A stretch of 64,000 nucleotides of DNA from an uncultured Acidimicrobiales bacterium (lineage in GTDB: Bacteria > Actinomycetota > Acidimicrobiia > Acidimicrobiales > SHLQ01): assembly GCA_937922235.1 (NCBI GenBank), contig CAKZVC010000047.1, positions 62,001 to 126,000 on the forward strand, read 5' to 3'. Every line of letters begins with the position of its first letter. The first letter of the stretch is position 1. The notes below the pieces were generated by a model, which was not told the DNA's origin, searched no databases, and saw only the letters and a list, made by a program, of their open reading frames with translations. The position numbers and the translations under genes were made by a program. This document shows positions 35,325-44,815 of this stretch, in pieces.

Positions 35325-35345
35325 GTTGAGTGCATTCGACTAAGG
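35325..35345. promoter_or_regulatory. HAIR-like HspR operator 1 (weak)
   Basis: GTTGAGT-N7-ACTAAGG matches the HspR inverted repeat CTTGAGT-N7-ACTCAAG at 11 of 14 positions with the exact 7-bp spacing, 149 bp before dnaK. Confidence 0.5.
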
Positions 35346-35417: not shown

Positions 35418-35438
35418 CTTGAGCGCTGTCCACGCAAG
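35418..35438. promoter_or_regulatory. HAIR HspR operator 2
   Basis: CTTGAGC-N7-ACGCAAG matches the HAIR consensus at 12 of 14 positions, 56 bp before the dnaK ATG. With the hspR gene at the end of the operon it implies autoregulation by HspR. The gap 35221-35493 holds no gene. Confidence 0.8.
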
Positions 35439-38973: not shown

Positions 38974-39324
38974 ATGGCTCGCTCGACCAAGGTGTATGTG
39001 ATCTCGGTTGCCGCTGAGCTTTCGGGCATGCACCCGCAGACACTTCGCATTTATGAACGCAAAGGGTTGGTTCATCCCGCTCGGACGTCAGGTGGCAGCC
39101 GTCGTTACACCGATGCCGACATTGCGCTGTTGCAGCGCATCTCCGAGCTCACCTCCGAGGGCATGAACCTGGTTGGTGTGAAGAAGGTGCTTGAGCTCGA
39201 GCGCCGGGTAGCTGACCTTGAGGCCAAGCTCATCGACCAGCGAAGCTCACTGCGCGAGAAGGCCCAGTCGCACGAGCTGGTGCCAGTTCGCCAAACCGTC
39301 ACCGTGTACGAGCGGCGCCACTAG
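38974..39324 (+). CDS. hspR: Heat-shock repressor HspR (MerR family)
   Basis: A 116-residue MerR-type regulator. The winged helix motif VISVAAELSGMHPQTLRIYERKGLV is near residues 9-33, followed by RTSGGSRRYTDADIALLQRI and a C-terminal coiled coil (VLELERRVADLEAKL). HspR binds HAIR sequences and represses dnaK and clpB until denatured clients draw DnaK away. It starts 1 bp after dnaJ. HAIR matches are seen upstream of dnaK (35418-35438) and clpB (44795-44815), consistent with this role. Confidence 0.96.
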   Translation: MARSTKVYVISVAAELSGMHPQTLRIYERKGLVHPARTSGGSRRYTDADIALLQRISELTSEGMNLVGVKKVLELERRVADLEAKLIDQRSSLREKAQSHELVPVRQTVTVYERRH

Positions 39325-40984: not shown

Positions 40985-41821
40985 ATGACCAAAGCGCACC
41001 GTACGTTTGTGAGCTACATCGACAAGTCGCGCGAGTACTACGCGGCGCAGGGGTATGACGCTCCGTACAAGTGGGCCACCCATACCGATGCTCCGTTTAC
41101 CGCGCTGACGAAACCCTTGTCCGAGTGCCGCGTCGCGGTGATCACGACAGCATCGCGAACACCTAATGATCCTCTCGAGCCATACACGGCACCGTCGCAA
41201 CCAGCTCCAGCTTCGATGGCAACCAACCATCTGTCGTGGCACAAGGAAGCAACAACCACAGACGACCTGGGGGCCTTCCTACCGCTCGATCACCTACAGG
41301 CGTTTGCCGACGAGGGCATCGTCGGATCACTTGCGCCACGCTTCGCAGGTATACCCACGATTTACAGCCAGCGACGGACGAACAGGTGGGCCGAGAGCAT
41401 TCGTGAGTGGTTTGCCGAAGATGGTGTCGACCTTGCGGTGCTGACACCGCTTTGACCGGTGTGTCATCAGACCGTGAGTCTGACCGCCCGTTACCTCGAA
41501 GCGAACGGCATTCCAACGCTCATCATCGGTTCGGCCCGAGACATCGTCGATGAAGTGGGCGTCCCGCGCTTTGCCTTTACCGACCTGCCGCTCGGCAACC
41601 CGGTGGGCCCATCGGGTGATGTCGAACAACAGCGCCGGCTGCTGAAGGCCGCGCTCGAGTTTGCCCATGCCACGGTGCTCCCGCAGTCGAGCGTGGTGCT
41701 TCCCGTCGAATGGACTGGCGCCGAAGACTGGCGAGAGAGCTACATGTCGCTTGCTGATCCAGAAGCACTTGCAGCTGCCGGTGAAGCTCGTCGAGCAGAA
41801 CAGGCGGCGAGGAAGACGTAG
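40985..41821 (+). CDS. GrdB-related selenoprotein (selenocysteine at residue 157, UGA recoded)
   Basis: One 278-residue frame if TGA at 41453-41455 is read as selenocysteine; otherwise two short open frames in the same phase. The joined protein matches the glycine/sarcosine/betaine-reductase selenoprotein B-like family: DGVDLAVLTPL-U-PVCHQTVSLTARYLEANG, that is a UxxC redox motif followed by the usual TVxLxARxLExxGI helix. Homology continues without a break on both sides (SLAPRFAGIP before, FTDLPLGNPVGPSGD after). A hairpin with GT in its loop lies 12 bp after the TGA. The family reduces or binds carbonyl or thiol substrates by analogy with GrdB; the reaction here is unknown. selA/B/C/D are not in this window. 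Confidence 0.85.
41453..41483 (+). promoter_or_regulatory. Candidate bacterial SECIS element
   Basis: The TGA (41453-41455) is followed by TCAGAC-CGTGA-GTCTGA (41467-41483), a perfect 6-bp stem with a 5-nt loop that contains GT. The loop G lies about 19 nt after the TGA, in the range reported for bacterial SECIS elements. Confidence 0.6.
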
Positions 41822-44794: not shown

Positions 44795-44815
44795 GTTGAG
44801 TTACCTGTACTCAAG
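44795..44815. promoter_or_regulatory. HAIR HspR operator upstream of clpB
   Basis: GTTGAGT-N7-ACTCAAG matches the HAIR consensus at 13 of 14 positions with exact spacing, 61 bp before the clpB start. Confidence 0.88.

Follow-up and report, generated by a model that had tools for sequence, protein, structure and literature searches.

Selenoprotein lists, in the parts available, hold both GrdB (PF07355, UxxC) and PrdB (TIGR04483, UxxC) as families (PMC13188914, PMC9312934). GrdB, GrdF and GrdH are component B of the glycine, sarcosine and betaine reductases (PF07355, TIGR01918). Selenoproteins named 'proline reductase PrdB' number 42 in the Sargasso Sea, with Sec/Cys forms at 42/1 (PMC1088965), and 'PrdB' selenoproteins number 235 in GOS, with Sec/Cys forms at 235/110 (PMC2398784), according to the available portions of those surveys. 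No open-licence paper was found that joins 'selenoprotein', 'acidimicrobi' and 'selenocysteine', or that joins 'selenoprotein B family' with 'reductase' and 'selenoprotein'.

We analyzed a window of 64,000 nucleotides from an uncultured Acidimicrobiales bacterium, the window being the whole stretch of DNA under analysis. One reading frame on the forward strand runs from an ATG at 40985 to a TAG at 41821, with a TGA at 41453–41455 as its sole interruption. When this TGA is translated as selenocysteine (Sec), the gene (40985–41821, +) yields 278 residues with U157 in the motif LTPL-UPVCHQTV; the frame, its coordinates, the place of the TGA and the motif all agree with the original prediction. 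The translation and the alignment described below place a predicted active-site UxxC motif, U157-P-V-C160, at 41453–41464 (+). Of the protein, 156 residues precede the TGA and 121 follow it, and both parts are conserved among relatives. Two truncated genes had been expected from automatic calling, and a plain ORF listing indeed splits the gene into pieces of 156 aa and 120 aa, the latter from a GTG at 41459.

The frame, its profile matches and its homologues mark the gene as of PrdB/GrdB type. The best NCBIfam profile is PrdB (TIGR04483), with residues 36–243 aligned onto model positions 18–234 of 238 at 82.3 bits, where the equivalog cut-off is 300. Every one of the 39 members of alignment A2 matches this model. 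The GrdB-type NCBIfam models score 25–34 bits, all under cut-off (TIGR01918, 29.6 versus 65.45; TIGR01917, 25.3 versus 602.2). Pfam GRDB (PF07355) is reached just over its gathering score, 22.1 versus 22, on residues 78–154 only. 'GrdB-like', as the gene had been called, is thus only a loose description: it holds barely by the Pfam model and gives way to PrdB by the NCBIfam models. For the predicted structure (pLDDT 95.3), no PDB entry is matched at E ≤ 0.001, the best having an E of 1.3e-3 and a TM of 0.31. Searching solved structures by sequence returned nothing better than E 0.02.

The protein could be a true subunit of a D-proline, glycine, betaine or sarcosine reductase, with its pyruvoyl partner encoded in sequence that was not assembled. 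PrdB homology over nearly the whole model and the UxxC motif speak for this, and the assembly may lack about an eighth of the genome. A GrdE/PrdA-type proprotein (PF09338, which covers PrdA) was not found in the own genome, whose assembly is 87.5% complete. Of 396 genomes sampled across the phylum, 15 match PF09338, so the model works in this phylum. Among the 64 of these genomes that have the family, one matches it (G658) and 63 do not; the 64 are defined by a protein near the window protein (E ≤ 1e-12), and the count may therefore miss true PrdB or GrdB genes. The GrdA profile (PF04723), run on the own genome only, had no match there, and the same model matched no control. A missing PF09338 or GrdA is no proof of absence in a genome only 87.5% complete. 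The genome does contain a gene for cytochrome oxidase subunit I, so the organism probably respires oxygen. With 63 of 64 family genomes lacking PF09338, no shared operon partner, an oxidase gene present and a PrdB score of 82 against 300, we consider an amino-acid reductase subunit improbable. The profile scores, the lack of a detected PF09338 match and the cytochrome oxidase gene together argue instead for a redox enzyme that works alone, probably a selenol/thiol oxidoreductase rather than an amino-acid reductase of the Stickland type.

Gene neighborhoods were compared at 15 loci. The window locus shares neighbors only with the same-genus genome, where, as in the window, the gene lies between a dnaK-grpE-dnaJ group (the three named by eye) and clpB; outside the genus, none of its neighbors was seen again at the remaining 13 loci. 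Three loci (L019, L020 and L056) share two other neighbors, one with a TRAM domain, and neighbors are common within L057/L058 and within L061/L062, each pair being from one genus. Among the paralogous groups (14 loci), enoyl-CoA hydratases recur near L065, L069/L070, L082 and L083 in varied positions. In a pair of MAGs, two selenoprotein genes stand side by side, as a Sec glutathione peroxidase gene (NVASAUGLTPQY) is directly upstream of the family gene (L019:4466-4966, L020:4401-4958).

A link of the gene to HspR was considered and rejected. HAIR-like HspR operators were seen before dnaK (35418–35438, 2 mismatches) and before clpB (44795–44815, 1 mismatch) and none before 40985, in a search with the HAIR consensus that allowed up to 3 mismatches and had no chance estimate. 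Weaker matches with 3 mismatches are at 35325 and 57759, and the window has an HspR-like MerR gene at 38974–39321.

The window protein is matched at 1e-15 in 116 of 395 genomes of the class, and most of the listed matches have one internal TGA. For alignment, 70 loci were taken (L021–L090, L021 being the window gene and several being one gene covered twice) together with two MAG loci. Dropping identical cores left 55 members, the window gene counted, which were picked from the best and some odd matches rather than at random. At the Sec column, 51 of these have TGA, two have Cys (L032 and L033, HCPVCHQSA) and two have Ala (L080 and L081), which is the comparison of Sec and Cys forms at residue 157 that had been called for. 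The phylum search added one further Cys member outside the 55 (L095), and its five other matches without TGA (G736, G433, G405, G418 and one of G444) stand outside the Cys and Ala counts; a motif search in one of the five, L096, gave no match. In a tree of 56 rows, the Cys label takes two changes; the Cys rows are nested within larger Sec groups, and the two Ala rows form a single clade.

Homology on both sides of the TGA, as claimed, is borne out by 14 near-full-length relatives, to which the window protein is 44–55% identical upstream and 45–64% identical downstream. These relatives have TGA at the Sec position in 12 cases and a Cys codon in two, and coding continues conserved past the TGA rather than ending there. 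Because both sides are conserved and the TGA is common to 51 of 55 members, a sequencing error or chance stop is very unlikely. Second and third TGAs in some relatives were tried as extra Sec codons and rejected, since by eye each seems to be the natural stop of its gene, with non-gene sequence after it. The genome of the window has a second TGA-bearing member of the family, 37% identical to the window protein (L063, G000:C12:111586-112365). At L082:2950-3840 (-), the Sec codon is kept and Asp replaces the motif Cys (UPLDHQTV).

A SECIS-type hairpin is predicted by folding and covariation at 41467–41483 (+), where the original prediction had put it. Its 6-bp stem (41467–41472 with 41478–41483) follows the TGA after an 11-nt spacer and closes the loop CGUGA with its GU (41473–41477). 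The case for this hairpin is carried by the alignment, its single sequence being weak alone: the window fold has a z of −1.07, and 24 of 200 shuffles fold equally well. On 26 chosen TGA rows, 92.9% of cells are paired, versus at most 41.7% with the partner slid. Two-sided changes fill 19 cells versus 5.3 in shuffles and occur in four of six pairs, a number of pairs that, taken alone, is matched by 48 of 500 shuffles. Left to itself, RNAalifold recovers these six pairs. Across the full set of 51 TGA rows, the paired cells amount to 94.1% versus at most 47.7% slid, and 41 rows form all six pairs. The loop has GU in 48 of the 51 rows, but this conservation alone is no proof because the GU lies within a conserved Val codon.

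The hairpin energy is only slightly lower than that of synonymous-codon draws (mean z −0.88 over the 51 TGA rows), versus z from +0.10 to +1.36 in four non-TGA rows, and in several TGA rows the hairpin is not the minimum-energy fold. The weakest TGA rows are the same-genus L022 with three of six pairs and six rows, including the own paralogue L063, with only four. Among non-TGA rows, the Cys rows keep five and four pairs and the Ala rows three, and L095 retains a similar stretch. Therefore, the hairpin is only partially lost along with Sec.

The Sec machinery was found in the own genome (G000), as had been proposed. tRNA-Sec scores over cut-off twice on contig C41, selA and selB are adjacent on contig C64, and selD is on C64 within a 736-aa open frame; selB and selC, whose absence had been named as a ground for rejection, are thus both present. 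The two tRNA-Sec genes (L001, C41:73-164 (+), and L002, C41:2063-2154 (-)) lie 2 kb apart in opposite orientation and are nearly identical, with 138 bases common at 99%; since one copy is at the contig edge, the duplicate may be an assembly effect. selD (L018, G000:C64:55552-56442) is the C-terminal part of its frame, the N-terminal part being NADH-dehydrogenase-like by eye; such fusions are known. A candidate second SelB at C41:8640-9530 was rejected, as by eye it is EF-Tu-like and without the SelB C-terminal part.

Examined for membership of the UGA-decoded bacterial selenoproteins, the gene shows conserved coding before and after its in-frame UGA, and some homologues have Cys in that position; directly downstream is a hairpin with a covarying stem and GU in its loop; and the genome has selA, selB, selC and selD. 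Because of the homology on both sides, the TGA column, the covarying hairpin and the genes for tRNA-Sec, SelA, SelB and SelD, the TGA at 41453–41455 (+) is very probably decoded as Sec, as the original prediction had it. If the UGA were an ordinary stop, the product would be a 156-residue protein, and what follows would be either a pseudogene or a separate gene starting at GTG 41459; these are exactly the two pieces of the ORF listing. With TGA in 51 of 55 members and Cys in others, a downstream half conserved as well as the upstream half, a covarying hairpin and the Sec machinery, this is very improbable. That a near-cognate or suppressor tRNA reads the UGA as another amino acid is scarcely credible, given tRNA-Sec, SelA, SelB and SelD, a hairpin at SECIS distance and identified substitutes that are Cys (three) and Ala (two), with five other non-TGA matches outside this count.

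Sec decoding had been thought uncommon in this group, but it is not: of the genomes sampled, 247 of 395 in the class and 206 of 396 in the phylum had a detected tRNA-Sec, the two samples overlapping. tRNA-Sec is thus widespread among genomes of this phylum. In the class, it was found in 99 of 116 family genomes versus 148 of 279 others (Fisher 2.9e-10), and in the phylum in 55 of 64 versus 151 of 332 (6.7e-10), both values being uncorrected for kinship. Symbiobacterium has since been moved out of the Actinobacteria, which in 2006 were called a selenoprotein-rich phylum with 12 families, Symbiobacterium counted in. The latter description is that of the available part of PMC1794560. Family genomes without detected tRNA-Sec number 17 of 116 in the class and 9 of 64 in the phylum, and most are less than 90% complete (14 of the 17 in the class); those that are not are G020, G232, G252, G504, G524 and G563. 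No tRNA-Sec was detected in the two Ala-bearing genomes, which belong to the class's 17 and are only 80% and 64% complete.

With good confidence, the gene is predicted to encode a stand-alone selenoprotein with Sec at residue 157. The hairpin 11 nt past the UGA at 41453–41455 would recruit SelB with Sec-tRNA, so that Sec would be inserted as residue 157. The protein, related to the Sec-bearing subunit of D-proline and glycine reductases, would act without a pyruvoyl proprotein partner. We infer redox chemistry at the U157/C160 pair from the UxxC motif and from the MAG pair with a Sec glutathione peroxidase gene just upstream, and hold this to be an evenly balanced call. Most likely, the U157 selenol and the C160 thiol pair as a selenenylsulfide, and this pair would turn over a substrate that is a small molecule or a thiol and would be re-reduced by a cellular thiol system. 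A redox protein of unassigned substrate, as originally proposed, would fit this scheme.

It is also possible, as a tentative proposal, that a large stand-alone Sec enzyme family in oxygen-respiring Actinobacteria reuses the Sec-bearing part of Stickland reductases, dispensing with the pyruvoyl subunit, to carry out another kind of reduction, for example on a small-molecule thiol, peroxide or electrophile. Many environmental 'proline reductase' sequences would then not be reducing proline. The analysis restores as one gene what a plain ORF caller cuts in two. It also finds that a group of environmental selenoproteins named 'proline reductase' has relatives mostly without the partner required for proline reduction, and their real substrate is therefore still a testable question.

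Compared with the known systems, the window protein is like PrdB (TIGR04483) in that nearly the whole model is aligned and that UxxC is listed for PrdB in the available part of PMC13188914. It is unlike PrdB in its low score, in its first 35 residues, which lie outside the matched stretch, and in its genome, with an oxidase gene and without a detected PF09338 proprotein. With GrdB, GrdF and GrdH it shares an alignment to the C-terminal third of the models, but only to that third, and the NCBIfam scores are all under cut-off. GrdB is given as UxxCxxC in the same available part (PMC13188914), whereas in the window protein HQT follows UPVC, so the second Cys is absent. The 'PrdB' selenoproteins from the two marine surveys, Sargasso Sea and GOS, resemble it in UxxC and, in GOS, are placed in pfam07355, as far as the available parts of the surveys describe them, and these parts make no mention of a missing partner (PMC1088965, PMC2398784); judging from these descriptions, they and the window gene probably belong to the same broad group. 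The only unusual point is a probably oxygen-respiring host in which the reductase partner subunit was not found. Because the GrdB and PrdB families and the 'PrdB' counts already stand in selenoprotein lists and surveys, the window gene is a divergent new member of a large recorded selenoprotein family, probably the pfam07355 'PrdB' of marine metagenomes.
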